From NCBI GenBank assembly GCA_012798435.1, contig JAAZNF010000087.1:1-64000 (forward strand): a stretch of 64,000 nucleotides of DNA, in the 5' to 3' direction. The notes under the pieces are model-generated. The model had not been told where the DNA came from and ran no database searches. It saw only the letters and a list, made by a program, of their open reading frames with translations. The position numbers were made by a program, and so were the translations under genes. Every line of letters starts with the position of its first letter. The stretch's first letter is position 1. Shown piece by piece: positions 1-51,945 of this stretch. This stretch comes from Myxococcales bacterium (GTDB lineage Bacteria; Myxococcota; B64-G9).

Positions 1-10
1 CCATCCGGCA

Positions 11-52
11 GATCGAATGGTGCCAGTCACCCCGGAAATAGTTATTAATCAA
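11..52. repeat. REP-like direct repeat, left boundary of Rhs island
   Basis: A stretch of about 42 bases contains the near-palindrome GGTGCCAGTCACC followed by CCCGGAAATA and then GTTATTAATCAAT. The same string, with a small internal duplication, recurs at 3155-3217 right after the transposase remnant. The pair therefore brackets the toxin island. Palindromes of this kind commonly accompany RAYT transposases; the link here is an inference from position. Confidence 0.6.
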
Positions 53-97
53 TAGATTACGTCATGGATTGACGGTTTATGACACCGGAACCGGAGG

Positions 98-991
98 GTG
101 GCGCGGAAGGTGAACGGAGCGGTGCAGAAGGGGTACCTGTGGAAGGGGCAGCTCAGGATAGTTGCCGAGCTGGATGCGAGCGGGCAGGTGACGAGCAGGT
201 TCATCTATGGTACAAAGGTCAACGTGCCGGAGTACATGATAAAGGGCGGCGCGACGTACAGGCTGATTGCCGACCAGCTCGGCTCGGTGCGGCTGGTGGT
301 AAACACCTCTACCGGCGCGGTCGCGCAGCGCATGGACTACGACGAGTTCGGCGTCGTCACAAACGACACCAACCCCGGCTTCACCCCCTTCGGATTCGCC
401 GGCGGGCTGTACGACAATGACACCAAGCTCGTCCGCTTCGGCGCCAGGGACTACGATGCCGAGACGGGGAGGTGGACGAGCAAGGATCCGATCCTGTTCG
501 CCGGAGGGGATGCGAATCTGTTTGGGTATATTCTCTCTGATCCGATTAATGCGGTTGATGTCCTTGGCCTAAAACCAGGTGACAGATATCGACACGAAGA
601 CAGCGCGGCAATGGCAGCGAGTGCAGACATCTGGGACCAATACTATTTTGACAGGTCATATCCTCCCGCGGATCAGATTGACATTGAACGAGGAGGTTTT
701 ATCTGTGTTTGCGAAGACGGGTTTTTTACATATACTCCAATGACAGATGGTGGCTTTGGATTTTGTGATCCCCGGGGTGGCGAGAAGTGCCCGCCGGGAT
801 GTGAGGCATATGCATTCTATCACTCGCACCCTAACAACACCGGCATTAGTGGAGATGACAGATTCTATGGCAACAAGATCGTGCCCTTGAGGCGGGGTTA
901 TGCTGTCGGTTCAAATGGAAGCGTATTCTACTACGACGATGTGCTCGGTATTGACAGTGCATTTCTTGGAAGCGTCAACTATGGCAAATAG
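98..991 (+). CDS. Rhs core fragment with DUF4329/JAB-like C-terminal toxin tip
   Basis: This is the 3' end of an Rhs/YD-repeat polymorphic toxin, not a full gene. Residues 1-150 carry the Rhs core, including [14 protein letters not shown] and the DPINAVDVLGL border that separates core from toxin. The tip (about 150-297) contains YHSHP followed by SGDD, resembling the metal-binding H-x-H-P...S-x-x-D signature of JAB/DUF4329 domains often found on Rhs tips; a proteolytic role is possible but unproven. The frame is open only from 83, and a stop at 80-82 together with a YD-like sequence in another frame upstream suggests frameshift or truncation. Rhs tips act as contact-dependent effectors; a displaced tip needs recombination into a full Rhs gene to be delivered. 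The next gene overlaps its end by 11 bases and is the likely immunity gene. The GTG start is nominal. Confidence 0.7.
   Translation: MARKVNGAVQKGYLWKGQLRIVAELDASGQVTSRFIYGTKVNVPEYMIKGGATYRLIADQLGSVRLVVNTSTGAVAQRMDYDEFGVVTNDTNPGFTPFGFAGGLYDNDTKLVRFGARDYDAETGRWTSKDPILFAGGDANLFGYILSDPINAVDVLGLKPGDRYRHEDSAAMAASADIWDQYYFDRSYPPADQIDIERGGFICVCEDGFFTYTPMTDGGFGFCDPRGGEKCPPGCEAYAFYHSHPNNTGISGDDRFYGNKIVPLRRGYAVGSNGSVFYYDDVLGIDSAFLGSVNYGK
184..560 (+). repeat. Duplicated Rhs core segment, copy 1
   Basis: This stretch is highly similar to 1962-2335: both encode the same Rhs core from [19 protein letters not shown] to the DPIN border. The two copies are in direct orientation with a toxin tip after each. 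This is the arrangement that lets displaced Rhs tips recombine through the conserved core. Confidence 0.75.
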
Positions 992-1907
992 AATATTTAC
1001 ATATGGCACGGTGGTAGCTGTACTGCTTGAGTTGGTGTGTTGCAAGGAGGAGAACGGCACCCAGGGGGTTCGCTGGGTGGAGGAGACAAGACCTGGTGTT
1101 CAGTTCCTGATTTCCGAGATCCGACGAATATCGGACTGCATCGAAAAAGGTAAGACATGCGTCGCGGATTATAAAGAGCTGATTCGCAGAAAAGTCGATT
1201 TTGAGTTCGGCATTGACAATGATCTAAAATGTTTCATTGGAAAAAACAATGAAGAGATTCGTGATGTTCTTGGCAGGCCCCAGGTGGTTGATCGTGACTA
1301 TGACCTCGGTATGAATGATGGCAAGATCCTAACAGGTGATTGGGAGTACCGACTCTTGACCAGCGATGAGTTGGTAGATCGTTGTTTTATGAGGATTCCT
1401 GACAGTGTATATATTCGGTACGATGAACGATGTGTATGTTCATCGGCATTCCGTGCGTTGACGAGTACTGCTCTTCTAAAAAGCGAATACTTTTCTTATC
1501 ATGATACAGACACCGCTATTAAGGTCCTTGTGGAGCGAGTTATTGACTATGACGAATATGATGTGCGGGTCATATCTTCAAAAAAGGTTGATAAGGTTAG
1601 AGTCATGGGTGTTGACTGCAAGAGATTGGAAGACGAACCATCAGGCGAAAGTAAAAAGAGCCATCAGGCAAGACTTGCCGAGCTCGAGAAGGTCGTCATG
1701 GGAAAGGTGATCATGCTGTCCAAAGACAAAATATGCAGTGATTCGGATGTGACAAAAGACCGAAGGTATGTTATCGTCCCGCACGGGCCATTCGATTATG
1801 GGGGCTACTTAATAGAGAACGAATACTGTGTGCCGGCTGTGTATTCGTGCAGATACGAGCGGGAGGATAAATATAAGAGAATAAAGGACAAGGAGCAAAG
1901 AGAGTAG
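981..1907 (+). CDS. Putative lipoprotein, candidate immunity protein for the upstream Rhs tip
   Basis: The 308-residue product begins [12 protein letters not shown] and has a short hydrophobic segment ending LVCC, which could be a lipoprotein signal (imperfect lipobox). The rest is charged and soluble, with many Lys/Glu and a Lys-rich tail. I do not recognise a family. The start at 981 is chosen because it lies 11 bases inside the end of the toxin gene, with GGAAG at 968-972, and gives a signal-like N-terminus; an upstream start at 900 would read through the toxin gene. Immediate overlap with a toxin tip is the classic position of an Rhs immunity gene, and envelope location would fit protection against an incoming effector. 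Base composition is clearly more AT-rich than the flanking chromosome, consistent with transfer. Confidence 0.55.
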
Positions 1908-1918
1908 TCATACTCCAT

Positions 1919-2623
1919 ATGCTCGGACATCATTGGGTTGTGGCAACGTTGGATTCTGGTGGCCAGGTGACGAGCAGGTTCATATATGGTACCAAGGTGA
2001 ACGTGCCGGAGTACATGCGAAAGAGCAGCACCCTCTACCGCATCATCACCGACCAGCTCGGCTCCGTCCGCCTGGTGGTCAACGCCAGCACCGGCGCGGT
2101 CGCGCAGCGGATGGACTACGACGAGTTCGGCATCGTGACAAACGACACGAATCCTGGGTTCCAGCCCTTCGGCTTCGCCGGGGGGCTCTACGAACCGGAC
2201 ACCAAGCTCACCCGCTTCGGAGCCAGGGACTACGATGCGGAGACGGGGAGGTGGGTGACCAAGGATCCGATAGGTTTCGGGGGAGGGGATGCGAATCTGT
2301 ATGGGTATGTTGTTGCCGATCCGATCAATAAACAAGACACACATGGACTCGCCACCGATTATAACATCCAATGGATTTGTCGTCTCGGTGATTGCGCAGA
2401 AAGAGGAACCCCATTTCTCGCCCCATTTCGCCAGCTCAGCGAGGGTCCAGGGTGTTCTTTTAAGAAATGCTGGGAGAACTGTCGAGGGACAACCAACCCA
2501 ATAGGTGTATGTGGCAAAGGTATTGGTGGAAAACTGCTAACCGCGGTAACTGCTGCATGGGATACAGGCACCGGAATCGGATGCGCCATTACTTGCAGTA
2601 TGGCTCCTTGTGTATGGAAATGA
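1919..2623 (+). CDS. Second displaced Rhs core fragment with Cys-rich toxin tip
   Basis: Residues 1-145 repeat the Rhs core of the first fragment ([14 protein letters not shown], then [11 protein letters not shown] at the core/toxin border). The tip (about 145-234) is different: it is rich in cysteine ([22 protein letters not shown]) and ends in a Gly/Ala-rich hydrophobic stretch. I do not recognise it. Homology to the core begins abruptly near VVATLDSGG, only a few codons after the ATG, so this is a displaced tip rather than an intact gene. Two tips behind one core, each followed by a small unrelated gene, is the normal storage layout of polymorphic toxin repertoires. Confidence 0.65.
1962..2335 (+). 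repeat. Duplicated Rhs core segment, copy 2
   Basis: Direct repeat of the core DNA at 184-560, diverging mainly at third codon positions and ending where the two toxin tips begin to differ. It supplies the homology for tip exchange. Confidence 0.75.
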
Positions 2624-9042: not shown

Positions 9043-11790
9043 TCAGGGAGGTGTCGGGGTGGCGTCGATCTGGCGTCCGAGCTCCTCGATGAGCGCACGG
9101 GTGCGTTCGAAGCCTGCGAAGCGGCCGAGGATCTCTCTCGCGGTGTCGGCCCGCCCGGCACGAAGCTCAGAGAGCGCCAGCAGCGCCCCCGCCTCGCCGA
9201 AGTCGCTCACGGTCTCGATGCCGCGCAGCAGGATGGCGCGGGCCTTGAGCGGATCGACGGCGGAGCTTGCGTTGGCCCACAGCAGGATCTCGGCCCGGTA
9301 GAAGCCGCGCAGGCGCTCCGAGCCCGGCGCTCGCGCCAGGCCCTGCTCCAGCAGCCGCGCGCGTTCTTCGAAGTCCCGTCCGGCGCGAAGCATTCCGAGC
9401 GCGAACAGGGTGTCCCGCACCGCGCGGGCCTCGGCGAACACCTCGGCCTCGGCGCCGGAGGCGGCGTAGCGGGCGGGATCCTCCAGGCGCGGCTCGAGGG
9501 CCGCGGTGATCTCGCCCGCCAAGTCGCGGCCGATCACCCGCGCGGCCCAGAACTCGAGAAACGGCCGGTCGTCCTCCACCAAAGGAGCCCCGGTGCTCCA
9601 GGCCCGCAGCGCCTCGTCGCCCATGAGAAAGAGCGACAGGAGATCGGCGGCGCGGGTCAGGTGGTTCTGGCGCAGGTCCGGCCCCACCCCGCGCTCGCGC
9701 ACGCGCCGGCGCAAGGTTTCGGGGTCCAGGCGCAGCGGCTGCGTTGACAGTAGCAGGATGCCCTCGAACTGATCCTGCCACAGCATGGCGTGGGGGAACT
9801 CCGAGAGCGCGGTCGCCACCATGGCGCGCAGGCTCTCCACGGTCTGCCCGTACAGCGGGATCATCTGGGCCATCACCCCATCCGGGGCGAGCCGCGCGCG
9901 GGCGTCGCGGTAGAACTCGCGGGTGTACAGCGTGGTCATGCCGGCGGCCCAGGTCTGGCTGGGCTCGAGCACGATGAGATCGACCGGCCGGCGCAGCGCG
10001 CGCAGGAAGGCTCGCCCGTCGGCGTGGTGCAGCCGCACCCGGGGATCGGAGAAGAAGCCGCCGGTGACCTCGTTGAAGTACTTGCTGGCGAGCCGGAGGA
10101 TGTTCTCGTCGATCTCCACCGCGTCGAAGCGCTCCGGCCCGTGGCGCAGTGCCGCGGCGAAGGTCTGCCCCGAGCCCATGGCGATGCCCAGCATGCGCTG
10201 CGGGTTGTCGCAGAACAGGGCGGGGAGGTGGCCCAGCAGCCGGTGCCGCGCGCCCAGGGTGGTCGAGTGCCAGGAGGAGTTGATCCACAGGCGGAGCTGG
10301 CCTTCGTTCGTGCGGGTGACCATGGCGTCGCTGCCCACGCCCTCGCGAAGCTCCAGGATGCGCTCCCCGAGCGGCAGCCACAGCTCCAAGATTCGGCGCG
10401 GGATCTCGAAGGTGAGGAGCGGTAGCAAGAGGAGCACGCCGGTGCCCAGGATGGCCAGGCGATGGCGCAGGTCTGGAACGGCGGGGAGGACCAGCAGGGC
10501 CACCAGCGGGCAGCACAACGCGAGCACGGTGAGCGTCGCGTGCGATCCCAGCAGGGGGAGCATCACGAAGCCCGCGAGCAGACTTCCCAGGATGCCGCCG
10601 GCGGTGTTGATCGCGTACAGGCGCCCGAAGGCCCGCGAGCCGTCGGGCGCGCCGGAGGCCGCCGCCAGCAGTGGCAGCACCGCCGCGTTCAGCGCGGCGG
10701 GAGGGACCAGCAGGCCCATCAGCGCCAGAAACTCCAGGGAAAATTCACCCCGGGCGACGGTCAGCATCTGGGAGCCCGAGGCGACCAGAGAAAGCAGCAG
10801 CAGCGGCACCGCGGCTGCGAGCAACCCCGCCGCGAGTTGCATCCAGGACAGGGTGAGCCGCAGCCGGCTCGGCTCCGGTTGCCGCCGCGCCAGGTAGCCC
10901 CCGAGCAGGCCGCCCAGGGCGACGCCCAAGAGCACCGCGGCCAGCACCAGGGTGAAGGCGTGGACGGTGTTGACCATGACCACCGAGAGCAGCCGGGTCC
11001 ACACCACCTCGCACCCCAGCCCGATCAGGCCGCCCAGCGCCGCGGCCAAGACCACGCGACGCCCCAGCGGCGGGTCGCTCCCCGTGGGCGCCTTGGCCGT
11101 CGGGGGAAGGGAAGCCGCGGCTTCCGAGCGCCGGGCGAACTGCACCCCCAGGGCGAGCAAGCCGGCCAGCAGGGCCAGCGCGGCGCCCAGGAGCGCGGTC
11201 AGCCGCAGCCCCAGGCTCTCCACCCCGATGAAACCGGCGAAGAGAGTCCCCGCCACCGCCCCCGCGGTGTTGATGCCGTAGAGCCATCCCATCCAGGCCC
11301 CGCGGCGCGCTCCGCTCCCGGTGGCGCGCTGCACGTGGGCCAGCAAAAGCGGCAGCGAGGCACCCAGCAAGATGGTGGGGAGCAGGAAGTACAGGCCGGC
11401 CAGCAGCAGCTGGAGAAAGAGCGGGTCGGTAAGCTCGGCCTCGGTACCGGCGCTGGCGCCGAGGTGCGAGAGCTTCACGACGAGCGGCAGCCCGAGGATG
11501 GCCAAACCCGCGGCGCAGGCCTCCGCCACGGCGTAGCCGGCCAGCGGGAGGCGCAGCCGCCGCGAGAGCTGGCCGGCCAGCGCCGAGCCGATCCCCAGCC
11601 CGGCCATGAACACCGAGAGCACCACCGCCTGGGCGGTGGCCGTGGCGCTGGTGAGGGCGCACAAGGCCCGCGTCCAGGCCACCTGGTACATGAGCGAGGC
11701 CGCGCCCGAGGCGGCCAGGGCCAGGCACAACACCACACCGCCGCGTACGCGCGCGCCGGGTTCGGCGCAGGTTGTTTCGGGCGCTGTCAT
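9043..11790 (-). CDS. Polytopic membrane protein fused to spermidine-synthase-like methyltransferase-fold domain
   Basis: About 915 residues. Residues 1 to about 490 are a multi-helix membrane domain of the type seen in fused MFS/spermidine-synthase proteins. Around 530-690 lies a Rossmann fold: GIAMGSGQTF, DAVEIDENIL, then HADGRAFL. Where true aminopropyltransferases have a D-x-x-D-P gate loop with the catalytic Asp, this protein has LIVLEPSQTW, so spermidine synthesis is unlikely and another SAM-type or unknown reaction should be considered. The last 150 residues are Ala/Leu/Arg-rich helices resembling TPR-type repeats. The start at 11790 (MTAPETTC) avoids an implausible N-terminal extension of 47 residues. 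It is divergent from the lipoprotein locus starting at 11913. Confidence 0.75.
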   Translation of the reverse strand: MTAPETTCAEPGARVRGGVVLCLALAASGAASLMYQVAWTRALCALTSATATAQAVVLSVFMAGLGIGSALAGQLSRRLRLPLAGYAVAEACAAGLAILGLPLVVKLSHLGASAGTEAELTDPLFLQLLLAGLYFLLPTILLGASLPLLLAHVQRATGSGARRGAWMGWLYGINTAGAVAGTLFAGFIGVESLGLRLTALLGAALALLAGLLALGVQFARRSEAAASLPPTAKAPTGSDPPLGRRVVLAAALGGLIGLGCEVVWTRLLSVVMVNTVHAFTLVLAAVLLGVALGGLLGGYLARRQPEPSRLRLTLSWMQLAAGLLAAAVPLLLLSLVASGSQMLTVARGEFSLEFLALMGLLVPPAALNAAVLPLLAAASGAPDGSRAFGRLYAINTAGGILGSLLAGFVMLPLLGSHATLTVLALCCPLVALLVLPAVPDLRHRLAILGTGVLLLLPLLTFEIPRRILELWLPLGERILELREGVGSDAMVTRTNEGQLRLWINSSWHSTTLGARHRLLGHLPALFCDNPQRMLGIAMGSGQTFAAALRHGPERFDAVEIDENILRLASKYFNEVTGGFFSDPRVRLHHADGRAFLRALRRPVDLIVLEPSQTWAAGMTTLYTREFYRDARARLAPDGVMAQMIPLYGQTVESLRAMVATALSEFPHAMLWQDQFEGILLLSTQPLRLDPETLRRRVRERGVGPDLRQNHLTRAADLLSLFLMGDEALRAWSTGAPLVEDDRPFLEFWAARVIGRDLAGEITAALEPRLEDPARYAASGAEAEVFAEARAVRDTLFALGMLRAGRDFEERARLLEQGLARAPGSERLRGFYRAEILLWANASSAVDPLKARAILLRGIETVSDFGEAGALLALSELRAGRADTAREILGRFAGFERTRALIEELGRQIDATPTPP

Positions 11791-11912
11791 CGGGCCGACG
11801 GTATCGCCTCGTCCGGCCCCAGTCAAAGCCAATTCCTTCGCACTCTTCTTGACGGGTAGAGATGCATCCGGCAGACTGTAGCAGGAGCCGCCAGACGGCC
11901 CTGGAGACGGAC

Positions 11913-12530
11913 ATGATTCGCCGTGAAGCATGCTGGCTGATGCTTTCTCTGGGGGCGGCGCTCGGGGCCTGCGCCCACGACGAGGTACCCCTGTTGTGCC
12001 AGGCGGCGCGCACCGGCGATCTGGTCATCAGCGAGCTCCGCGGCAAACAATCCGACACCGACACCTGGGGCGAGTGGGTGGAGTTCTACAACGCCTCCTC
12101 CCGGGAGCTCTCCTTGCGTGGGCTCGACCTGCGCATGGCGAAATTCGACGGCAGCAGCGAGCACCACCTGGTGGTGCGTTCGCCGCATACCCTCGCCCCC
12201 GGCGGCTACTTCGTGTTCGGGCGGTTCGACGAAGCCAGCCTACCAGACCACGTGGACGCCGGGTTCCTGATCGACTTCGACTCGGATCTCTACAAGGAAG
12301 GGATTTACGACCTGCTGTGCGGCACGGCGGAGCAACTGGTGGACCGGGTGGTGCTGAACGGCAACCTGCCCTCCCAGGGGACCCTGTCGCTCGACGGTCG
12401 CCTCACGCCCAGCGCCGCCGCCAACGACGATTCGCAAAACTGGTGCCCCGACGCCACCAGCACGTCGGACGGAGGGTCGCAGCTGGGTCTGCCGGGGACC
12501 CCCGGCCGGGAGAACCGTCCATGCGGCTGA
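11913..12530 (+). CDS. Lamin-tail domain lipoprotein
   Basis: A 205-residue exported protein. The signal peptide ends in a lipobox LGAC (Cys20). The mature part is one lamin-tail (LTD) beta-sandwich: GDLVISELRG, EWVEFYNASS, LAPGGYFVFG and a closing LGLPGTPGREN. Bacterial LTDs are known to accompany secreted nucleases and are thought to bind DNA, protein or the surface. GGAGACGG precedes the ATG; an earlier start at 11862 would bury the signal peptide. It is the first gene of an exported-protein series, and the next gene starts 10 bases before its stop. Confidence 0.8.
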   Translation: MIRREACWLMLSLGAALGACAHDEVPLLCQAARTGDLVISELRGKQSDTDTWGEWVEFYNASSRELSLRGLDLRMAKFDGSSEHHLVVRSPHTLAPGGYFVFGRFDEASLPDHVDAGFLIDFDSDLYKEGIYDLLCGTAEQLVDRVVLNGNLPSQGTLSLDGRLTPSAAANDDSQNWCPDATSTSDGGSQLGLPGTPGRENRPCG

Positions 12531-13705
12531 GGTGCAATCCGACGGCTCTGATCGTCGCGCTTTCGGGCGCGTTGCTGCTCTCCTCGCTCGCCTGTTTCGG
12601 CGGCTCCAAGCGAGTGCGGCGGTACCACAAGGCCGAGTTGCAAGAGGTGCTGAGCCGGCTCGAGACCCCGGGGCTGGTCATCGGGGAGTTCACCCTGGCC
12701 AAGAACGCCGTGGTGGACGGCGATACCATCAAGGTCGCCGGGCTCGACTCCTCGCTGCGCCTCTCCAACCTCGACACCGAGGAGACCTTCAAGAACGAGG
12801 CCGACCGGCGCCTCTTCGAGAGCGGCTGGGAAAACTATCTCACCACCAAGCAAAGCCAGACCAATCGGCCCATCAAGGCGGCCACGCCCATGGGCGAGGC
12901 CGCCAAGGAGTTCGCCAAGAAGTTCTTCGAGGGCGTCGACGTGGTACGCCTGGAGCGTGATCACCCGAAGGAGATCCGCGACCGCTACAACCGCTACCTG
13001 GCCTATGCGTTCGTGCGCAAGAACGGGGAGTGGATCAACTACAACGTCGAGGCGGTGCGCGCCGGCATGAGCCCGTACTTCACCAAGTACGGCTACTCGC
13101 GCCGCTTCCACGACCTGTTCGCCCAGGCCCAGCGCGAGGCCCAGCAGAAGGAGCTCGGCATCTGGAACCCCAGCACCCTGCACTACCGCGACTACGTGCA
13201 GCGGCTGGAGTGGTGGGACGCGCGGGCCGACTTCCTCATGGAGTTCGAGACCGAGGCTGCCGGCAAGGAGAACTACATCGATCTCAGCCACTGGGACGCC
13301 ATGCGCAGGCTCGAGAAGTACGAGGGCCGGGAGGTGGTGGTGTTCGGCTCCATCGAGGAGATCATCCTGGGCGACAAGGGCCCGACGCGCGTCAAGCTCA
13401 GCCGGCGCCTGGGCGGCTCGTTCCCGCTGATCTTCTTCGACAAGGATGTCTTCGGCTCCTCGCATATCGCGCGCTGGCAGGGTGAGTACGTGCGAGTGAA
13501 GGGGACGGTGACCCGCTACCGCAACCGCTTCGGGCGCGAGGAGCTGCAGATCGTGGTGAACTTCCCGGGCCAGGTGCGGGGCTCGGAGCGGGTGCCCAAC
13601 TTCAGCGGGGTCAACCCCGAGGGTACGGGACGGGGGAACGACGACGGCGAGGACATCGAGCCCGCGCCGGCCGAGGAAAAGAAGGAGGAAGCCCATGCGC
13701 CGTAG
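12521..13705 (+). CDS. Thermonuclease-family (SNase) lipoprotein with C-terminal OB-fold-like domain
   Basis: A 394-residue lipoprotein (lipobox LLSSLAC, Cys25). The SNase core shows VVDGDT (65-70), Arg80, Asp85 and Glu88 in RLSNLDTEET and Arg158 in DRYNRYLAY, matching the Arg35, Asp40, Glu43 and Arg87 set of staphylococcal nuclease, so it should be a Ca-dependent DNA/RNA endonuclease. An insert of about 50 residues separates the two halves of the site. Residues about 255-350 (EGREVVVFGS, EYVRVKGTV) look like an OB fold, a second possible nucleic-acid-binding module. An acidic tail follows. The ATG lies inside the previous gene, and its own end overlaps the next start by 11 bases, indicating translational coupling. 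Confidence 0.82.
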   Translation: MRLRCNPTALIVALSGALLLSSLACFGGSKRVRRYHKAELQEVLSRLETPGLVIGEFTLAKNAVVDGDTIKVAGLDSSLRLSNLDTEETFKNEADRRLFESGWENYLTTKQSQTNRPIKAATPMGEAAKEFAKKFFEGVDVVRLERDHPKEIRDRYNRYLAYAFVRKNGEWINYNVEAVRAGMSPYFTKYGYSRRFHDLFAQAQREAQQKELGIWNPSTLHYRDYVQRLEWWDARADFLMEFETEAAGKENYIDLSHWDAMRRLEKYEGREVVVFGSIEEIILGDKGPTRVKLSRRLGGSFPLIFFDKDVFGSSHIARWQGEYVRVKGTVTRYRNRFGREELQIVVNFPGQVRGSERVPNFSGVNPEGTGRGNDDGEDIEPAPAEEKKEEAHAP

Positions 13706-15374
13706 CCGACAGATATTCACCGGGCTACTCGTGCTGCCGCTGCTCGCCTGGTGCGGGGCCGGCTGCGGCGGGTCCTCGGGGTCGAGCTGCCAGGGGCTCA
13801 TGCCCGGGGACCTGGTCATCAGCGAACTCTTCGCCAACCCCAAGGGCACCGACGACGGCAAGGAGTGGTTCGAGATCTACAACGCCACCACCCGCCCCAT
13901 CGAGCTGAAAAATCTGGAGCTGGTCTCGGCGCGGGCCGACGGCACCGGCGAGACCGTGCACCGCATGGCCCAGGCCACCATCCCCGCGGCGGGGTTTTTC
14001 GTGCTGGGCAGCATGCTCTCGAGCATCAAGCCCGAGTGGGTGGACTACGCCTACCAGAGCGATCTCGGGGGGCTCCGCAACGACTCGGGCTCGCTGGCCT
14101 TGCGCTGCGGCGGGGTGGTGATCGACCGGGTGATCTACGAAAACTGTGCCGAGGGCGCCTCCAAGCAGTTCGACGGGGCCCAGGTGCCGGACGCGGTGGC
14201 CAACGACACCCTCACCCGTTGGTGCGACGCCACCGTGCCCTACGAGACCGACTCGCTGGGCACCCCGGGCGCCCCCAACGAGAACTGCGCCGGCATCTCG
14301 CCCACCTCGTGCAAGGAGAACGGCCAGGTCCGCGACGTGGTGAAGCCCGTCCTGGGCGACCTGGTGATCGCCGAGTTCATGCCCGATCCCTCCAAGGTCG
14401 GCGACACCGCCGGTGAATGGTTCGAGATCGCGGTGAAGCGGGACGTCGACCTCAACGGCGTGGAGGTCGGCAACACGCCGGGGACGGTCAAGTTCCGGGT
14501 GGCCTCGCTGGACTGCGTGAAGGCCCAGGCCGGGGACTTCCTCCTGTTCGCGCGCTCGGGCGATCCCACCCTGAACGGCGGCCTGCCCACGCCCAAGTTC
14601 GTCGCCAACGTGAGCCAGGCCAACAGCGCCGGCAGCTTGTTCGTCTCTCACAACGGCGCGCTGCTGGACCAGGTGAGCTGGACTTCGGCCAAGGCCGGCA
14701 AGTCTCGCGCGCTCGATCCCGGCAGCCTCGACCCGGCGGCCAACGACGACCCCGGGGTGTGGTGCGACGGCCAGGATGCCTACGGCGCCGGCGACCTCGG
14801 CACCCCGGGCGCGGCCAACCCCTCCTGCGGCATCGTGCCGCCCGGCAAGTGTCTGGTGGGTGGCGCGCCGCGCGACAAGGTGGCCCCCGCCGCCGGCGAC
14901 CTGGTGATCTCCGAACTCATGCCCAACCCGGCCGCGGTGGACGACACCGCTGGAGAGTGGTTCGAGATCGCGGTGAAGCGAGACGTGGACCTCAACGGCC
15001 TGCAACTCGGCCGGGACATCGGCAGCATCACCCAGACGCTGCCGGAGGGCGAGTGCCTGCGAGTGACGGCGGGATCCTTCGTGGTCTTCGCCCGCAACGA
15101 CGATCCCGCCACGAATGGCGGCCTGCCCCGGGTGGACTTCGTGACCACCCTGAGCCTGGTGAACACGGACGGCACGCTGGCCGTGGGCATCGGTGGTACG
15201 CTCCTGGACGGGGTGAGCTGGGCGAGCTCCACCAGCGGCGCCAGCAAGAGCCTGTCGGCGAACCACCTCGACGCGACCGAGAACGACACGCAGAGCTTCT
15301 GGTGCGACGGCCAGGTGGCCTACGGCGCCGGAGACAAGGGCAGCCCCGGCGCGGCCAACCCGGCCTGCCCGTGA
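13695..15374 (+). CDS. Triple lamin-tail domain lipoprotein
   Basis: 559 residues: a signal peptide with Cys at the cleavage region (LLAWCGAGC), then three LTD modules in tandem. Each opens with GDLVISEL or GDLVIAEF, contains EWFEI and closes with DLGTPGAPN-type loops, at about 35-200, 215-380 and 390-559. Modules two and three are clearly duplicates (EWFEIAVKRDVDLNG in both). Cysteines bordering each module could form disulphides. No catalytic motif is visible, so a binding or scaffold role is inferred, perhaps holding DNA for the flanking nucleases. It is coupled to the upstream nuclease by an 11-base overlap. Confidence 0.8.
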   Translation: MRRSRQIFTGLLVLPLLAWCGAGCGGSSGSSCQGLMPGDLVISELFANPKGTDDGKEWFEIYNATTRPIELKNLELVSARADGTGETVHRMAQATIPAAGFFVLGSMLSSIKPEWVDYAYQSDLGGLRNDSGSLALRCGGVVIDRVIYENCAEGASKQFDGAQVPDAVANDTLTRWCDATVPYETDSLGTPGAPNENCAGISPTSCKENGQVRDVVKPVLGDLVIAEFMPDPSKVGDTAGEWFEIAVKRDVDLNGVEVGNTPGTVKFRVASLDCVKAQAGDFLLFARSGDPTLNGGLPTPKFVANVSQANSAGSLFVSHNGALLDQVSWTSAKAGKSRALDPGSLDPAANDDPGVWCDGQDAYGAGDLGTPGAANPSCGIVPPGKCLVGGAPRDKVAPAAGDLVISELMPNPAAVDDTAGEWFEIAVKRDVDLNGLQLGRDIGSITQTLPEGECLRVTAGSFVVFARNDDPATNGGLPRVDFVTTLSLVNTDGTLAVGIGGTLLDGVSWASSTSGASKSLSANHLDATENDTQSFWCDGQVAYGAGDKGSPGAANPACP

Positions 15375-15394
15375 GGCACCGGCCGAAACTTGGA

Positions 15395-15478
15395 ACCGCA
15401 CGCCCGACCGCGTAGGCTCTTTCAAGCCCGAGGTCGAGTGAGAAACGAAGTCCATGTGGAACATGTCGCTCATCCCAA
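15395..15478. other. Intergenic DNA with a possible decayed family B repeat
   Basis: GCCCGACCGCG near 15400 and CCCGAGGTCG near 15430 resemble the arms of family B but lack its conserved centre. Nothing else is recognisable before the family A copy that follows. Confidence 0.35.
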
Positions 15479-15600
15479 GGAGCATGCTCGCATGCTCCTC
15501 ATTTTCGCGAAAACGGCCGAAGCCCGACCGCTGTCAAGGGCGAGCGCAGCGAGTCGCGAAGCGATCGGAGACCCTTGACAGCAAAGGTCGGGCGAAGGCG
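15479..15600. repeat. Structured repeat family A, copy 2 (compensatory variant)
   Basis: Upstream hairpin GGAGCATG-CTCG-CATGCTCC (15479-15498). The main stem has GCCCGACC (15522-15529) with GGTCGGGC (15586-15593) and GCTGTCAAGGG (15530-15540) with CCCTTGACAGC (15572-15582), separated by 31 nt. Compared with the other copies the outer stem differs by two paired substitutions (T-A to C-G and G-C to A-T) that keep base pairing. Confidence 0.8.
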
Positions 15601-15692
15601 ATGTCTGACAAGACTTGCGACCAGGAGAACGCCGCTATCGGAAGGGGGGATTCTGAACGCAAGCTGCACGCTTCTGACGCAGATGTTTCTTG

Positions 15693-15731
15693 GTGCGACC
15701 GACCGCGAGCCCACACAGCCAGCGCGCGCAC
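15693..15731 (-). repeat. GC-rich palindromic repeat family B, copy 1
   Basis: Read on the minus strand it carries the core GCTGGCTGTGTGGGC between GC-rich arms. It lies 43 bases upstream of the small nuclease gene and is inverted relative to copy 2, which lies just after that gene. Confidence 0.65.
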
Positions 15732-15774
15732 GTTGCGATGCAGCCGTGCTTGGGGGGGGTGAGGTGTCCCACGG

Positions 15775-16278
15775 GTGAACCGGATGCGTGCATGCCGAGT
15801 CTTTTTCGTGATCCTTTGCTGCGCCGGCGGGATGTGCGCCTGCGGTGGCGGGGGAAGCTCGTGCGGTCCGGCCTCGGCCCAGGTGACCCGGATCATCGAC
15901 GGCGACACGCTGGAGATCGCGAGCGGCGAGAAGCTGCGCCTGCTCATGGTCAACGCGCCGGAGATCACCGCCGGCAAGAACGAGTGCTACGGCACCGAGG
16001 CCCGCGACTACAACGTGCAGATGGTGCAGGGCCGCACCGTGAAACTCGCATACGACAAGCAGTGCCGCGACATCTACGACCGCCTGCTGGCCTGGGTGGA
16101 GGTGGACGGCCGCGACCTCAACCTCACCCTGGTGGAGCGCGGCTACGCCTGCGTGCTGTACATCCCGCCCAACGGAGAGGCGCGCCAGTCGGAGTTCCGT
16201 CAGGCGGAGGCCGAGGCGCAGCTCGCCCACCGCGGCCTGTGGGGCGCCTGCCAGCCGGAGGAGATCTTCTGTGAGTGA
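15775..16278 (+). CDS. Small thermonuclease-family (SNase) lipoprotein
   Basis: A 167-residue SNase with a Cys-rich signal region (CCAGGMCAC). Active-site positions: Asp42 and Asp44 in IDGDT, Arg55, Glu63 and Arg103 are kept, but the Ca ligand equivalent to Asp40 of staphylococcal nuclease is Asn60 (LMVNAPEI), so metal use may differ. Extra cysteines (30, 71, 98, 126) suggest disulphides in the envelope. The GTG start at 15775 follows GGGGTGAGG at 15757-15765; an ATG at 15784 is possible. Its last codons overlap the start of the barrel protein gene (GTGAGTGA), indicating coupled translation. It is flanked by inverted copies of repeat family B. Confidence 0.82.
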   Translation: MNRMRACRVFFVILCCAGGMCACGGGGSSCGPASAQVTRIIDGDTLEIASGEKLRLLMVNAPEITAGKNECYGTEARDYNVQMVQGRTVKLAYDKQCRDIYDRLLAWVEVDGRDLNLTLVERGYACVLYIPPNGEARQSEFRQAEAEAQLAHRGLWGACQPEEIFCE

Positions 16279-18553
16279 CTTTTTCCCGGTACGGTCTTCC
16301 ACCGTCACCCCAACGCGCGACCGACCGCGCTGGCTGTGTGGGCCCCACGGCCGATCGCGCCCTGACCCGCGCCGCGGGTGGCTCGTTCTGCTGGGCTCGC
16401 TCCTTCTCGCCGCGGCTCCGCCTGCGCTCGGTGCGGACTACGGCGTGTTCGTAGAGGCCGAGACGGAGGAGGACCTGCTCGAGCTCCTGCGCGCCGACGA
16501 GATCGACCAGGACAGCTACGAGACGCTGACCGAACTTCTCAACGACGGGGTGGACCTCAACAGTGCCAGCCGCGAGGAATTGTACGCGCTGCCCAACCTG
16601 AGCTACGCCGACGTGGACGCCATCCTGGCCTTCCGCAAGGAGAACGGCGAGATCCGCGACCCGATCGAGCTCGTCTCCTCGGGCACGCTCACCAAAGAAT
16701 TGCTCCTCTCCATCGCGCCGTTCCTCATCGTGAGCGAGCCCGGAGAGCCGGCCACGGTGTCCACCCGGGCCCGGCTCCGCTACCGCACTACCTTCGTGGC
16801 GGGGGACGAGATCGTGCCGCCCATGATGCTCTCGGGCAACCTCTCCACCCTGCGCCACCTGGACGCCGGCCTCACCGGCGTGCTCACCCGCAACACGCTC
16901 GGCGAGGTGCGGGCCGATCCCAACTCATTCCGCGACGGCCTGTCGGCGGCGGCGCCCGGGGTCAAGCTGCAACCGGCCAAGTACTACGTGCAGTGGAAGG
17001 ACAGCCACCTGCACCTGGTGGCCGGCACCTACCGCATCGGCTTCGGGCAGCGTCTGGTGTTCGACAACACCGGTCGCTACGTCCCGCACGGGATCCGTGT
17101 CGACGACACCATCTACTACTCCCAGGACCTGAGCCTGGCCTGCCGCGAGAGCGCCGGGGAACTCACCCAGAGCCCGTGCAGCGGGGACCTGCTCTACTCC
17201 TACCAGGCCCCCGACTACCGCTGGACCGACCGGCTGCGCGGGTTCGCCGCCGGCTACCGCAGCGGCGACACCTTCGGGCAGGGTTTTTCGGTCCACGCCT
17301 TCGGCTCGTGGGTGAGCCGCGGGGTGTACCAGTACGAGCTCTTCCGCCCCGACCGCTGCGACGACCCCGAGCGCGACGACGATCCCGCCTGCAAGGCGCC
17401 GCCGGTGTACAAGCGCCAGGACGACCCGGCCGCGGCCGCGCCCACCTTCAAGTACATGACGCTGCCGGATCTCTTCGACGACCTCCTGGCGGGCGGCAAC
17501 TTCACCTACTTCTTCGACCGGCGCACCCACCTCGGTGTCACCGGCTACGGCGACGTGCTGCGCTGGAAGGTCGAGGGCATGGAGCTCGACTTCCAGGAGT
17601 ACTCCCGCTACCCCTACGGCGGGCCGTTCGGCGCGGTGGGGCTCGACGCGGCCTGGGGCGCGGGCAACATGGACGTGGCGTTGGAGGTGGCCCGCTCCTT
17701 CGACGGCACCCCGACCGGCGGCGGTTTCGCCGGCATCCTGCGCGGCACCGCCAACTGGAAGAAGCAGGAGATCGAGGGCGTGCTGCGCGCCTACGCCGGG
17801 GGCTACAAGAACCCCTATGCCCGCCCCATCGCCGAGCCCGACGAGTACGGCGGGTTGCGCTCGGCGGACGAGCTGGGCCTGCGCCTCAAATACCGCGCCA
17901 TCATCGACGATCTGCGGCTCAACTCCATGCTGGACTTCTGGGCGCCGCCCTCGAGCTGGACGCCCAAGATGGCCGCGCGCGTGCGCGCCGAGTACGAGGT
18001 CGAGACCTGGTTCCGGCCGGGGTTGTGGGTGGAGTACCAGGACAAGGATCTGGGGCCTGCCGAGGCGGGCGTGGACGAGTGCTTCGATTATTCATCCCAG
18101 ACCATCGCCGGCGAGGTCAGCCCGTGCGCCGGAAAGAAGCTCAAGTTCGGCGGCCAGGCCGCCTTGCTGCCGCGAAAGAGCCTCTCGTTCGTCGGCCGCG
18201 CCGAGATGCGACTGGTGTCCGACCCGGCGGTGGCTTCGCGGGGCGAGGATTTTCGCAAGGACATGGTGGCCTACCTGTGGGTCACCGTCCGGCCGGTGGA
18301 GAGCCTGCGGCTGCGGCTGCGTGTGCGCTACCTCAACGAGGATCTCGGCGTCTCGGAATCCGGCGAGGACTCGCTGTGGTGGTTTGTCGAGGCGGCCTGG
18401 GGGTTCGAGAAGACCTTCCGCGCCAAGTTCCGCGCCGAGCTGTACACCCTGCTCGACGACCGGGACAGCACGCAGCAGCGGCAGGCCTCGTTCCGCCTGG
18501 GCGGGCACCCGAGCGACCTGTGGCTCAGGCTCGAGCTCGAGTACCGCTTCTGA
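16271..18553 (+). CDS. Helix-hairpin-helix outer-membrane beta-barrel protein
   Basis: 760 residues. After a long Arg/Pro-rich n-region comes a signal peptide core (LVLLGSLLLAAAPPALG). Residues about 90-160 form a ComEA-like helix-hairpin-helix unit (LNSASREELYALPNLSYAD, then ILAFRKENGEI and a second half), a fold that binds DNA backbone. The rest is rich in alternating aromatic strands (KYYVQWKDSHLHLV, FRLGGHPSDLWLRLELEYRF) and ends in Phe, the usual outer-membrane insertion signal, so a barrel is inferred. HhH plus barrel next to two exported nucleases suggests a surface DNA receptor or channel. The GTG start overlaps the preceding nuclease gene. A copy of repeat B lies inside codons 15-30, lengthening the n-region. 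Confidence 0.72.
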   Translation: MSDFFPVRSSTVTPTRDRPRWLCGPHGRSRPDPRRGWLVLLGSLLLAAAPPALGADYGVFVEAETEEDLLELLRADEIDQDSYETLTELLNDGVDLNSASREELYALPNLSYADVDAILAFRKENGEIRDPIELVSSGTLTKELLLSIAPFLIVSEPGEPATVSTRARLRYRTTFVAGDEIVPPMMLSGNLSTLRHLDAGLTGVLTRNTLGEVRADPNSFRDGLSAAAPGVKLQPAKYYVQWKDSHLHLVAGTYRIGFGQRLVFDNTGRYVPHGIRVDDTIYYSQDLSLACRESAGELTQSPCSGDLLYSYQAPDYRWTDRLRGFAAGYRSGDTFGQGFSVHAFGSWVSRGVYQYELFRPDRCDDPERDDDPACKAPPVYKRQDDPAAAAPTFKYMTLPDLFDDLLAGGNFTYFFDRRTHLGVTGYGDVLRWKVEGMELDFQEYSRYPYGGPFGAVGLDAAWGAGNMDVALEVARSFDGTPTGGGFAGILRGTANWKKQEIEGVLRAYAGGYKNPYARPIAEPDEYGGLRSADELGLRLKYRAIIDDLRLNSMLDFWAPPSSWTPKMAARVRAEYEVETWFRPGLWVEYQDKDLGPAEAGVDECFDYSSQTIAGEVSPCAGKKLKFGGQAALLPRKSLSFVGRAEMRLVSDPAVASRGEDFRKDMVAYLWVTVRPVESLRLRLRVRYLNEDLGVSESGEDSLWWFVEAAWGFEKTFRAKFRAELYTLLDDRDSTQQRQASFRLGGHPSDLWLRLELEYRF
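16315..16360 (+). repeat. GC-rich palindromic repeat family B, copy 2 (inside coding sequence)
   Basis: GCGCGACCGACCGCG and CACGGCCGATCGCGC flank the core GCTGGCTGTGTGGGCC. It lies within the first 30 codons of the barrel gene, before the hydrophobic signal core, so it is translated. Confidence 0.65.
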
Positions 18554-18562
18554 GAAAGATGT

Positions 18563-19387
18563 TCACGGGGGCGAGGTGAGTACGCGCCGTACCCGTTCGA
18601 ACACCGCCGGGTGCAAGAGGTAGCTGTAGTGCGTGGCGGGGGTGAGATCGATGTGCTCGCTCCCCGGCAGGATGGCCGACTCGGCCGGCAGCACGAAGAG
18701 ATCGTTCCGGCTCCACAGACACACCACGCGGATCCGCGCGGGTAGCGGCTTTTGGGCGAGGCGCGAAAGCAGCTCGCTCCCCGGGCGCAGGTCGTGCAGG
18801 ATCGGGGTGTTCCCGTAGCGGGCCGGGTAGGTGCCCTGGTGCGGGCTCCCCAGCGTGACGAGCGTTTGCACCGACGGGCCCAGGCGGTGATCGGCGATGG
18901 CCAGCCGCGCCACGATCCCGCCCAGCGAGTGGGCCACCATGTCCACCTTCTTCTCGCCGGTGACCCTGCGCACCTTCCGCACCAGGCCGGCGAGGTGTCT
19001 GGCCCGCTCGCGCATCCCCATGCCGGACTCAAAGTGGGCGGGGTAGCAGCGCCGGAAGCCGTGCAGCCGAAAGTACCAGCGCATGAGGCGGAAGGCCGCC
19101 CCCGTCGCGCCCAGTCCCGGGACGAAGACCACCGGCGTGTGGTCGTCGGCCGGCGCGGGCCGGACCTCCTCGCCGCGGGTAAAGAGCGAAAACGACAGCG
19201 CCGGGAGCTGGGCCAGGTGGCGCTTCACGTCGGGATCGATGGCGCGGTAGGCATCCGCGCTCTTCTCACCGATGATTTTAGCGGCCTTGACGATGGCCGA
19301 CCCCGTGGCCTGGAGCGCGCGCCTCGCCTTGTTCTTGCGCTCTGTCAGTATAACCTCCCGGTCGCAGCAGTGTAGGCTTTGCGACAC
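18563..19387 (-). CDS. Alpha/beta-hydrolase, lipase-like
   Basis: About 274 residues of the lipase/PGAP1-like alpha/beta-hydrolase group. The oxyanion strand is VVFVPGLG (about 86-93), the nucleophile elbow AHSLGG (Ser near 154), the acid probably Asp in SRNDLFVLP and the catalytic His in THYSYLLHP near the end. There is no clear signal peptide, although the N-terminus is basic and amphipathic. It probably hydrolyses lipid or other esters. Start uncertain: the GTG at 19387 has no visible ribosome site, whereas a CTG at 19348-19350 has GGAGG five bases upstream, so the real protein may be 12 residues shorter. Convergent with the barrel gene, 9 bases apart. Confidence 0.75.
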   Translation of the reverse strand: MSQSLHCCDREVILTERKNKARRALQATGSAIVKAAKIIGEKSADAYRAIDPDVKRHLAQLPALSFSLFTRGEEVRPAPADDHTPVVFVPGLGATGAAFRLMRWYFRLHGFRRCYPAHFESGMGMRERARHLAGLVRKVRRVTGEKKVDMVAHSLGGIVARLAIADHRLGPSVQTLVTLGSPHQGTYPARYGNTPILHDLRPGSELLSRLAQKPLPARIRVVCLWSRNDLFVLPAESAILPGSEHIDLTPATHYSYLLHPAVFERVRRVLTSPP

Positions 19388-48056: not shown

Positions 48057-48096
48057 AAAGAAGCCGGTTCCGTCGTCTGGACCGGCTTCTTTTTTA
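48057..48096. terminator. Rho-independent terminator, probably bidirectional
   Basis: AAGAAGCCGGT and ACCGGCTTCTT form a stem with a 12-base loop followed by a T-run on the plus strand, and preceded by an A-run that gives a T-run on the minus strand. It ends the tRNA and overlaps the stop of the leftward amidohydrolase gene. Confidence 0.85.
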
Positions 48097-51000
48097 GCGG
48101 CCGGCGGCGTTGGGCGCTCCCGGCGTGGGCGTGTTGACGAAGCGCCAGTCGGCGGCGGCGTTGTCGGTGTCCGCGTGATCGGGGATGCGCGCTATCGAGC
48201 TGACGGCGGTGTTGCTGTCGGCCCCGGATGCGGGGGAACCCTCCACCAGGCTTACGGTTCCCACGCCGGGGATGGCCACCGCGGTGATGCTGCCTTCGTA
48301 GGAGAGCGCGTCCACCAGAATACCCGCGTTGGTGTCCACCAGGGCCAGCCCGTCCGGGGCGCCGTTCTGGATGTAGTCGCTGCCGCTGCCCAGGCTGATG
48401 AAGAGGGTCTCCGGCGGTAGGGAGGCCTGGACCGAGTCTGCTCCCACCACCAGGTATTGATCGGCGCCCAGGCTCCCCGCCACCGACAGGTTCAGCGTGC
48501 GGTAGATCGAGGGCGGGTTGGTGCCGCCGTTGACCAGGATCAGGGAGAAGCCGTTGAGGTCCAGCGCCCTCCCTGTGCCGTTGTAGAGTTCGCACCACTC
48601 CGCGTTGTCTGTCCCCACCTGGTCGTAATCCACCTCGTTGATGACGAATCCCCCGGTGCCTCCGGGCACGACCGTGACCGGCGTGTCGACGGAGCCCGCC
48701 GCCGTGGAGGCGGTGAGCGTGGTCGCACCCTCGGCCAGGCCCGAGGCGGAGAACGTCGCCGTGAAGCTCCCCGCCAGCGCAATCGCCGTGGCCGGGACGG
48801 AGACCAACGAGGGATCGCCGGCGCTGAGGGCGACGGTGCAACCTCCCGACGGGGCCGGGACATCCAGGCTCACCGAAAACTCCAGCGAGCCCCCCAAGGG
48901 GATGGCCGCGTTCGCCGGCAGCAGGGCCACGGGCGCCGGCACCCGATCCGCGGCCAGCACCTGCACCTCGGCGACAAACTGGTCGGGATCCAGCGTGGCG
49001 GTGACGGACACGGTGTCCGCTCCGCTCGCCAGGCCCGTGAGCGGTACGGCCACCTGCCGCGCTCCCTCGGGGACGGTGACCGCAGCCGGCGCGTCCAGGC
49101 GGTTCGGATCGGAGACGGCGATGGCCACGGTGGTGCCGCCTTGACCGACCGGCGAGGGGCGGTCCAGGGTGACGAGGAGTTCGGGGCTCGAGCCGGTCTG
49201 GCCCTCGTACACGTACACCGGGCTGGGCCCGAGGCCGGTGAGCCGCGGCGGGGTGGTGCTGCGGAAGACGACGTCGAAGACGTCGCGTGGCTCGACCTTG
49301 GAGTCGTTGTTGGCGTAGCGCAGGATGCCGGTGACGTCGAGCCGGTCACCGAGTTGCGGGAAGGGCGTGGTGAGGTACATGAAGTCATTGACCCGCAACG
49401 AATTGTCGAGAACGTATTCGTTTGTGGGGTCGGTGTCGCCGGCGCCGGCCGGAGGGTTGAGCGCGGTGACCTGGCCATCGCTCACCTTCACCAGGACACC
49501 TTCATAAGCAGCCGCCAGGCTGCCGCCGGTCGCCACGTCGGAGGGAAGCACCGCTACCGGCTGCGGCAGCGGCTCGCCCTGCGCCAGGATCTGCACCGCG
49601 CTGACGCTGGAAAGCTCGATCTGGCCGTACCAGAGAGTGACCGTGCCTGTCACTCGTACCCGGTCGCCACGGACAGGGATGGGGAATCCACCGGGGTTGG
49701 TCGCGGGCAGGTACACGTAGATACCGCTGAACTGCTCGCGTAGCTGGGGATCCTGCTCGGCCGGCGGTACCTGGAGGAAGAAGCGGGGCGAGGCAACGGC
49801 GGTGGTCACGCCCTGAATGCTCACCACGCTGCCCGCCGGGACCGAACCGTTCTTAACCGCGTAGATGCTGGCCGGGCAGGCGGAGAAGCCGGGGTTGGGA
49901 TCGTTGGGGCATGGATCGCAGGCATCGCCGATGAAGTCCAGGTCGCGATCGGCCTGGTCGGGGTTGGGGATGAGCGGGCAGTTGTCGGCGGCGTTGGGCA
50001 CGCCGTCCCGATCCCGGTCGTTGGGATCGGGCGGGCTGCACGAGGTGGTGTTCGGATCGAGGGGGCAGACGTCGCAGGTGTCCCCCACGCCGTCATCGTC
50101 CTGGTCTCCCTGGAGGCCCTGATCCATGGGCCGGATGGGGTTGAAGACCTCGGGGCAGTTGTCGGCGCTGTTGGGAATGCCGTCGCCGTCGAGATCATCG
50201 GCGCTGGTCGTGCCGTCGTATTCGCCGGGGCGCATGGGCACGCACGACGGTTCGCCGGGCGGATCGTCGCAGAAGAAGAGCCCGTAGGCGGTGGCGTTGG
50301 CGGCCGCCAGCGCGGCGAAACTCTGACCGATCTCGCGCTGGACGCACAGGCTCTTGGGCACGCCGCACACGTCGCCGGGGATGGGCTCGCAGCCCGTCTG
50401 GCCGCCGGGCAACACCGCCATGATGTTGCTGTCCCCGACCAGCGGCAAGCCGGCGCGCAGCACCAGGGCCAGGTCCCCGGGGTTGCCGGCGATCACCGCG
50501 CGGTAGAACTCGCGTCCGGCATGCTCGGCGAAGATGGCGATGTCGGCCACCCGCCCTGGGGTGAGCAGGCCCACCGCGTCGTCGATGGCCAGGATGGAGG
50601 CGGGTTGGGAGGTGGCCATGAGCCACAGCTCCCGATCGGAGAAGAACGAGTTGAAGTGTTGCCGGTTGAGGTAGTCGGCGCAGCGCAGCTCCCGCACCAG
50701 GTTGATGCTGCCGCTGGCGGACCAGTCGGTGCCGACGGCGATGCGCACCCCCTGGGCGGCGAACATGGTGACGGGGGCGGTGTTGCCGTAGAGCGAGACG
50801 TTCGAGCGCGGGGACCACACCAGACCCGCGCCGTCGTCGGCGGTCGCCTGGCCGTCCACCGGCTGCATGCCGACCAGGTGGATGGCGCCGACGTTGCCGG
50901 CGATGAGATCGACACCGCCGGCCTGGGCGCCGCTGAGGCACAAAAACTCGTTGCGGGCCTCAGCGTTCACACCCTCGGCGATGTGGGGCAGGTAGCAGTC

Positions 51001-51945
51001 CGACTGCAGCACGCTGACGCCGTCGATGTCGGGGTAGGCGCAGCTCCCGGTGAGCATGACGCCGGAGCTGTCGCCGAGCGGGAAGGTCTGGGAGTTCACC
51101 GTGCCCTGATTGAGGCCTTGCTGGCTGCCGCCGTCCATGTTGCGCAAGAAGCCGTTGGCCGAGCCGGCACCGGCGATGGTGGTCTCGCCCCCGAGCAGGT
51201 GGCGGATCTCCCCCCAGGCCACCTGCAGCGCGGTGGCGCCGCCGGGGACGGGGATGCGGGTGTGGCCGTTGAGGCCGCGGCGCCACTCGTGGCGATGATC
51301 GTAGCGTTCGGTGCCCCAGTTGCCCGGGGCGTTCTGGGCAAAGGTGAGGTGCTCGTGGGCGTTGATGAGCCCGGGCGAGACGGCACCGCGCGGGCAGGTC
51401 AGGCGCGTGGCGCCCGCCGCCGCGGGCTCTCCGCTGCAGTCGCAGGCGACGCACTGAATCCAGCCCTCGGTGGAGACGAGGATCTGCCCGCCCCGCAGCA
51501 CGCGGTCGGGCGCCAGGATGTCGCCGGTGATGAGCAGGTTTCCGTTGCCCGCGACCGCCTCGCAGGTGCCGCTGGGAAGCGGAGCGAGATCCTGGCACTC
51601 CTCGATCTCACTGGTCCCGCCGTCCCCTCCGTCTCCGCCGTCGGAACCGCCATCCTCGCCTGCATCGGCGCCGCCGTCCTCGGCTTCATCTCCTCCGCCA
51701 TCCGAGCCGCCGTCGATCAATTCATCGCCTCCGTCTTGACCGGCGTCCTCCGCCTCGTCGCCTCCGTCCGGGCCGGTGTCGGTCATGGTATCGCCGCCGC
51801 CGTCCGCCGCGTCCACCGCGGCATCCGCGTCGCCATCACCGTCGCCGTCCGAACCGTCCGGCCGGGGGGAAGAGCCGCCGCAACCTACAGAAGTCACGGT
51901 CAGACTCAAGAAGAAGGCCAACAGCAACAAATGAATTCGCGTCAT
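48094..51945 (-). CDS. Amidohydrolase-like lipoprotein with thrombospondin-3 repeats and lamin-tail domain
   Basis: 1283 residues. Lipobox TSVGC and a long Asp/Gly linker, then an amidohydrolase (about 150-520) with metal-site residues NAHEHL, GAIHLVG and GTDWSAS and the composite beta domain (GRVADIAIFAEHAG). Next come type-3 thrombospondin repeats (DLDGDGIPNSADNCPE, DRDGVPNAADNCP) that bind calcium, an OB-like domain (VRVTGTVTLWYGQIELSSV), Ig-like modules and a C-terminal lamin-tail domain (FVINEVDYDQVGTDNAEW). Probably a surface hydrolase; substrate unknown. GAGAGGA precedes the ATG at 51945. It shares the LTD with the 11913-18553 locus. Confidence 0.8.
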   Translation of the reverse strand: MTRIHLLLLAFFLSLTVTSVGCGGSSPRPDGSDGDGDGDADAAVDAADGGGDTMTDTGPDGGDEAEDAGQDGGDELIDGGSDGGGDEAEDGGADAGEDGGSDGGDGGDGGTSEIEECQDLAPLPSGTCEAVAGNGNLLITGDILAPDRVLRGGQILVSTEGWIQCVACDCSGEPAAAGATRLTCPRGAVSPGLINAHEHLTFAQNAPGNWGTERYDHRHEWRRGLNGHTRIPVPGGATALQVAWGEIRHLLGGETTIAGAGSANGFLRNMDGGSQQGLNQGTVNSQTFPLGDSSGVMLTGSCAYPDIDGVSVLQSDCYLPHIAEGVNAEARNEFLCLSGAQAGGVDLIAGNVGAIHLVGMQPVDGQATADDGAGLVWSPRSNVSLYGNTAPVTMFAAQGVRIAVGTDWSASGSINLVRELRCADYLNRQHFNSFFSDRELWLMATSQPASILAIDDAVGLLTPGRVADIAIFAEHAGREFYRAVIAGNPGDLALVLRAGLPLVGDSNIMAVLPGGQTGCEPIPGDVCGVPKSLCVQREIGQSFAALAAANATAYGLFFCDDPPGEPSCVPMRPGEYDGTTSADDLDGDGIPNSADNCPEVFNPIRPMDQGLQGDQDDDGVGDTCDVCPLDPNTTSCSPPDPNDRDRDGVPNAADNCPLIPNPDQADRDLDFIGDACDPCPNDPNPGFSACPASIYAVKNGSVPAGSVVSIQGVTTAVASPRFFLQVPPAEQDPQLREQFSGIYVYLPATNPGGFPIPVRGDRVRVTGTVTLWYGQIELSSVSAVQILAQGEPLPQPVAVLPSDVATGGSLAAAYEGVLVKVSDGQVTALNPPAGAGDTDPTNEYVLDNSLRVNDFMYLTTPFPQLGDRLDVTGILRYANNDSKVEPRDVFDVVFRSTTPPRLTGLGPSPVYVYEGQTGSSPELLVTLDRPSPVGQGGTTVAIAVSDPNRLDAPAAVTVPEGARQVAVPLTGLASGADTVSVTATLDPDQFVAEVQVLAADRVPAPVALLPANAAIPLGGSLEFSVSLDVPAPSGGCTVALSAGDPSLVSVPATAIALAGSFTATFSASGLAEGATTLTASTAAGSVDTPVTVVPGGTGGFVINEVDYDQVGTDNAEWCELYNGTGRALDLNGFSLILVNGGTNPPSIYRTLNLSVAGSLGADQYLVVGADSVQASLPPETLFISLGSGSDYIQNGAPDGLALVDTNAGILVDALSYEGSITAVAIPGVGTVSLVEGSPASGADSNTAVSSIARIPDHADTDNAAADWRFVNTPTPGAPNAAGR

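Follow-up and report, generated by a model that had tools for sequence, protein, structure and literature searches.

Extracellular nucleases that carry a lamin tail domain (LTD) are known, as in ExeM (PMC6085458), and the DNases of halophiles include proteins fused to an LTD or to a helix-hairpin-helix (HhH) domain (PMC4486849). What lamin tail domains do in bacteria is described as unknown (PMC6085458). DNA-degrading loci have also been reported from marine sediment bacteria (PMC8289736), and transformation in Riemerella needs an HhH protein in addition to a separate outer-membrane barrel/surface protein pair (PMC8459023). Beyond the pilus/secretin route, little is settled about how DNA or its fragments cross the outer membrane of diderm bacteria.

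The locus analyzed here brings together a pair of nucleases, lipoproteins with LTDs and a dedicated barrel in a compact, phylum-wide unit, of which no description was found in the open-access literature searched. In that literature, no paper joins Myxococcus with the lamin tail, and none joins Myxococcota with the outer membrane, a beta-barrel and the helix-hairpin-helix; these absences from a single open-access collection do not make the cluster unknown. Because the cluster occurs in culturable genera (Myxococcus, Corallococcus, Archangium and Nannocystis), the questions of the LTD role and of DNA crossing can be tested in the laboratory.

Organization of the locus

The DNA comes from a Myxococcales bacterium (GCA_012798435.1, contig JAAZNF010000087.1), and the window refers to the whole stretch of 64,000 nucleotides that was analyzed. 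Five plus-strand ORFs (g1 to g5) are all present at 11913-18553, and their domain matches exceed the curated Pfam cut-offs, which is 21 bits in the case of SNase (PF00565). The features are as follows.

11913..12530, plus strand: g1, LTD lipoprotein with lipobox LGAC; LTD at 12003-12236 (Pfam LTD, 6e-10, 39.9 bits)
12521..13705, plus strand: g2, lipoprotein with an SNase domain at 12677-13168 and an OB-like domain at about 13331-13555 (Pfam SNase, 6.5e-13, 49.5 bits)
13695..15374, plus strand: g3, lipoprotein with three LTDs at 13803-14132, 14355-14684 and 14886-15122 (Pfam LTD, 6.8e-24, 84.8 bits)
15478..15599, strand not applicable: palindromic interspersed repeat of about 122 bp, inside the g3-g4 gap
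15775..16278, plus strand: g4, small SNase lipoprotein; SNase domain at 15931-16242 (Pfam SNase, 1.7e-18, 67.4 bits)
16271..18553, plus strand: g5, HhH-type domain at 16544-16726 and barrel at 16766-18550 (Pfam HHH_3, 1e-8)

The ORFs, the Pfam domains and the overlaps (10 nt for g1/g2, 11 nt for g2/g3 and 8 nt for g4/g5) all agree with the first-pass annotation, which described five consecutive genes for exported proteins with overlaps among the first three and between the last two. The start codon is GTG in both g4, which has an alternative ATG at 15784, and g5. A simple lipobox pattern is found in 24/30, 37/49, 58/82 and 57/66 of the homologues of g1, g2, g3 and g4, respectively, and in only 8/95 of the g5 homologues. 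Both flanking genes lie on the opposite strand and are unrelated to the cluster; the 5' neighbor encodes an MFS/spermidine-synthase fusion (9043-11931), and the 3' neighbor encodes a lipase/PGAP1-like protein (18563-19387). A promoter scan using the sigma-70 consensus, which is unreliable for this host, found nothing, and an Rfam scan that included the repeat returned no matches. At the start of the window (1-2623), where the GC content is 50% versus approximately 69%, two successive ORFs encode Rhs/YD-shell tips (98-991, with DUF4329, and 1919-2623) with a further ORF between them, an arrangement that resembles a polymorphic-toxin tip array.

The gap between g3 and g4 comprises 400 bases (15375-15774). 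The REP/MITE-like repeat inside it is present in at least 40 copies in the same genome with 76-90% identity and has a very stable fold (z-score of -5.4). Among 69 homologous loci, 66 have no more than 156 nt between the stop codon of g3 and the conserved portion of g4. Judged from these sequence comparisons, the gap arose by the lineage-specific insertion of a repeat into a compact ancestral operon. The gap had previously been thought to weaken the idea of a single operon; since a genome-wide repeat has inserted here and the relatives are compact, it offers no argument against an operon.

The nucleases and the LTD lipoproteins

The SNase residues considered were the catalytic R35, E43 and R87 and the Ca ligands D21, D40 and T41. 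Equivalents of D21, R35, D40, E43 and R87 are present in all 32 of the g2 homologues, and D21, R35, E43 and R87 are likewise present in 67/67 of the g4 homologues, with D40 in 64/67. This conservation of the catalytic residues in both families supports the cutting by two nucleases that had been proposed. The g4 copy in the window deviates in that N occupies the position of D40 and A that of T41; because these are Ca2+-ligand positions, the activity of this copy may be reduced.

The similarity of g4 to thermonucleases in the PDB reaches 1.6e-14, and the AF2 model of g2 (pLDDT of 86) contains an SNase domain and an OB-like domain, with a Foldseek match to staphylococcal nuclease at a TMt of approximately 0.8. 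The OB part is weak by sequence, as PF01336 is matched in 7/32 homologues, and the topology of the AF2 model at residues 271-345 fits an OB domain. The SNase and OB parts of g2 are both basic, with pI values of 8.8 and 9.8, respectively. The genome (5 Mb) contains three SNase genes in total, two of which are g2 and g4.

The lamin tail domain (PF00932) scores above the curated cut-off in both g1 and g3, in the latter as three stretches, and four of the 14 LTD matches in the genome belong to these two genes. The g1 and g3 proteins are acidic (pI of 4.3-4.5), and g1 homologues adjoin g2 in many genomes. Another large exported LTD protein is encoded elsewhere in the window by a 1308-aa ORF on the minus strand (48094-52020), which matches amidohydrolase, thrombospondin type 3 and LTD domains.

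The g5 barrel and its HhH-type domain

The AF2 model of g5 (64 homologues) has a pLDDT of 90.1 and a pTM of 0.89 and reveals six short helices (model residues 36-121) followed by approximately 24 antiparallel strands that extend to the C-terminus. The model of the 16271-18553 product thus contains a barrel together with an HhH-type domain, as the structure-prediction check suggested for this product had anticipated. A C-terminal Phe or Tyr is a classical signature of outer-membrane proteins. The C-terminal residue is Phe in 66/79 g5 homologues and Phe or Tyr in 73/79, and four of the six homologues without either residue are truncated at the C-terminal end. The Foldseek matches are outer-membrane barrels, with the FimD/PapC ushers and MtrB as the best matches and TonB receptors also present; the similarity to the ushers and MtrB is low and generic (TMq of at most 0.38). 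These results confirm the prediction of g5 as an outer-membrane beta-barrel, the closure of which was judged from the fold matches. No match to the plug or TonB_dep_Rec Pfam families and none to the usher Pfam domain is present in the 64 g5 homologues. Because the number of strands is even, both termini of g5, and hence the helical domain, would be periplasmic according to the model. No relatives of g5 were found on plasmids or on viral contigs.

The HHH_3 family is matched in 57/64 g5 homologues, with T2SSK also touched in 4/64. The hairpin itself is degenerate and reads L-P-[N/G]-L-[T/D/S]; all 64 homologues lack the second Gly of GhG, the motif that binds DNA, and have T, D, S, N or A in its place. 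Two separate, canonical ComEA-like proteins of the same genome carry PGIG. The HhH domain of the window g5 is strongly acidic; its net charge per 100 residues is -9.8, and that of the entire N-terminal part is -17.8. A phmmer comparison of g5 with ComEA from the PDB gives 6e-4, and the score of g5 against the comEA model is 18 bits, which lies below the cut-off of 152.35. The earlier description of this domain as ComEA-like therefore stands for the fold and fails for the hairpin and the comEA score. The capture of DNA by the LTD and HhH domains had also been suggested; both are acidic, and direct capture is unsupported because the hairpin lacks GhG and the charge is acidic. HhH folds that do not serve DNA binding exist, as in PsbU and GspK. 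The assignment of an HhH domain alone is not proof of DNA binding, and the domain in g5 may be a gate or a docking unit.

Conservation of the cluster across Myxococcota

Cluster genes recur in most of 20 regions around g5 homologues in other genomes of the phylum. When named genomes were scanned, 80 g5 loci were obtained, with carriers that include Myxococcus xanthus, Corallococcus, Archangium, Pyxidicoccus, Nannocystis, Enhygromyxa, Paraliomyxa and Kofleriaceae. Where the flanking sequence reaches 5.5 kb or more at each end (52 g5 loci), g3 accompanies g5 in 51 cases, g4 in 43, g2 in 33 and g1 in 23, without exception in the orientation of g5. The order g1-g2-g3-g4-g5 is found in 17 loci, g5-g3-g4 in 12, g5-g2-g3-g4 in six and g2-g3-g5 in five, and the maintenance of proximity through at least four gene orders argues for selection on proximity. 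For scale, given the numbers of SNase genes and LTD matches in this genome, chance is estimated to place such a neighbor within 9 kb in no more than a few per cent of cases. In a subgroup of loci with the order g2-g3-g5 (L093-L095, L097, L101, L103, L109, L113 and L120), some of which are truncated, no g4 homologue was found.

A scan for g4 and g5 in 174 genomes of the phylum found both genes in 90, neither in 73, g5 alone in nine (at least three of which have g5 at a contig end) and g4 alone in two; these counts are not independent, as the genomes are related and vertical inheritance inflates the figures. The co-occurrence check in Myxococcota thus reveals phylum-wide synteny, with g4 and g5 co-present or co-absent. 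In combination with the model of a barrel with an HhH-type domain, this result leaves the statement that the five parts act as one system, formerly an inference, well supported.

No nucleotidase, phosphatase or nucleoside transporter and no com gene is a conserved neighbor among the clustered flanking ORFs. The remaining conserved neighbors are lineage-specific and comprise, by Pfam, a universal stress protein, a thymidine kinase and an ATP-grasp protein, the others being without function by match. The thymidine kinase gene adjoins the cluster upstream of g1 in Nannocystis and two related MAGs (L073, L075, L076, L102, L133, L079 and L072), which is a weak hint of nucleoside salvage from one lineage.

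A link to canonical competence is not supported by the distribution of ComEC. ComEC is present in 167/174 genomes, including most of the g5-negative ones, and this near-universal distribution does not track that of g5; com genes are also absent from the conserved neighbors. The genome studied here encodes ComEC in addition to its two ComEA-like proteins.

Proposed function and comparison with known systems

By computation, the cluster is a gene unit conserved across Myxococcota and comprises exported SNases whose active sites are conserved, LTD lipoproteins and an outer-membrane barrel. We give about even credence to the reading that the five genes form one cell-envelope system for nucleic-acid degradation, which probably also imports the fragments through g5. 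The lipoproteins would reside on the outer membrane, probably on its surface, where the basic g2 and the small g4 would cut extracellular DNA or RNA from prey, kin or biofilm. The acidic g1 and g3 may serve the barrel as a scaffold or a cap instead of binding DNA. The g5 barrel would admit the fragments to the periplasm, with its periplasmic, helical HhH-type domain as a putative gate or docking site, and the most likely use would be nutritional or the scavenging of phosphate or nucleotides. The passage of nucleic acid through the predicted barrel is possible. A more far-reaching proposal, which we regard as rather unlikely, is that g5 represents a new class of outer-membrane nucleic-acid channel, with a barrel of 24 strands and a gate derived from the HhH on the periplasmic side. 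Together with a dedicated set of surface LTD lipoproteins and SNases, it would import DNA or RNA fragments, as a Sus-like system for nucleic acids that is conserved across myxobacteria.

Other readings of the cluster assign a different role to g5. It may be a delivery or presentation device that exports the neighboring lipoproteins or holds them at the surface with no import of nucleic acid, similar to a translocon that serves cognate surface lipoproteins or to the MtrB sheath around MtrA. That ushers (FimD and PapC) and MtrB are the best folds, that lipoprotein genes adjoin g5 nearly always and that an acidic HhH-type domain with a degenerate hairpin fits protein docking better than DNA binding are all in accordance with this role; the generic nature of the fold similarity and the lack of the usher domain in every homologue weigh against it, and we consider it unlikely. 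An entry route for natural transformation, in which surface DNA is bound, nicked by the nucleases and drawn via g5 to ComEC, appears quite improbable. Although the HhH protein and the barrel/surface pair are essential in Riemerella (PMC8459023) and the genome has its own ComEC and ComEA-like proteins, ComEC occurs regardless of g5, the canonical ComEA-like proteins are separate from a cluster that has no conserved com neighbor, the g5 hairpin is without GhG, and two non-specific nucleases are a poor match for the uptake of intact DNA.

The least probable of these readings is defense or competition, in which the envelope nucleases destroy phage or foreign DNA or the eDNA of prey biofilms and the barrel is a structural anchor. 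Stable inheritance across the phylum with a fixed composition differs from the fast turnover of defense islands, and the checked neighbors are housekeeping or lineage-specific genes, none of them for defense, even though envelope nucleases with conserved active sites and the many predatory genera among the carriers would suit such a role.

The reading of a degradation system with fragment import can be set against known systems part by part. The fold and the catalytic residues of g2 and g4 are common to the staphylococcal nuclease family (PF00565; thermonuclease, NucI and EcnA), whereas g2 and g4 are lipoproteins, g2 has an additional OB-like domain, and both score far below the equivalog cut-offs of NucI and EcnA. 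As in ComEA, an HHH_3 domain follows the signal peptide in g5; unlike in ComEA, the hairpin is degenerate, and the acidic domain is joined to a 24-strand barrel. The ushers and MtrB are large outer-membrane barrels with a strand number like that of g5, which differs from them in its low TM relative to the query, in the lack of an usher domain and in its HhH-type N-terminus.

At the level of the whole system, Riemerella RA0C_RS02645 (HhH), RS04915 (barrel) and RS04920 (PMC8459023) appear analogous to the cluster in that DNA is handled at the envelope of a diderm with an exported partner. By description, on which this comparison is based, the HhH and the barrel of Riemerella are separate proteins, for which neither nuclease nor LTD partners are reported, in contrast to the g5 cluster. 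ExeM of Shewanella and YhcR of Bacillus, like the cluster, combine LTD and/or OB modules with nuclease modules for the degradation of extracellular nucleic acids (PMC6085458). However, the modules of ExeM and YhcR are fused in one polypeptide and the nuclease of ExeM is of the EEP type, whereas the present cluster distributes the modules over individual lipoproteins that are linked to a barrel.
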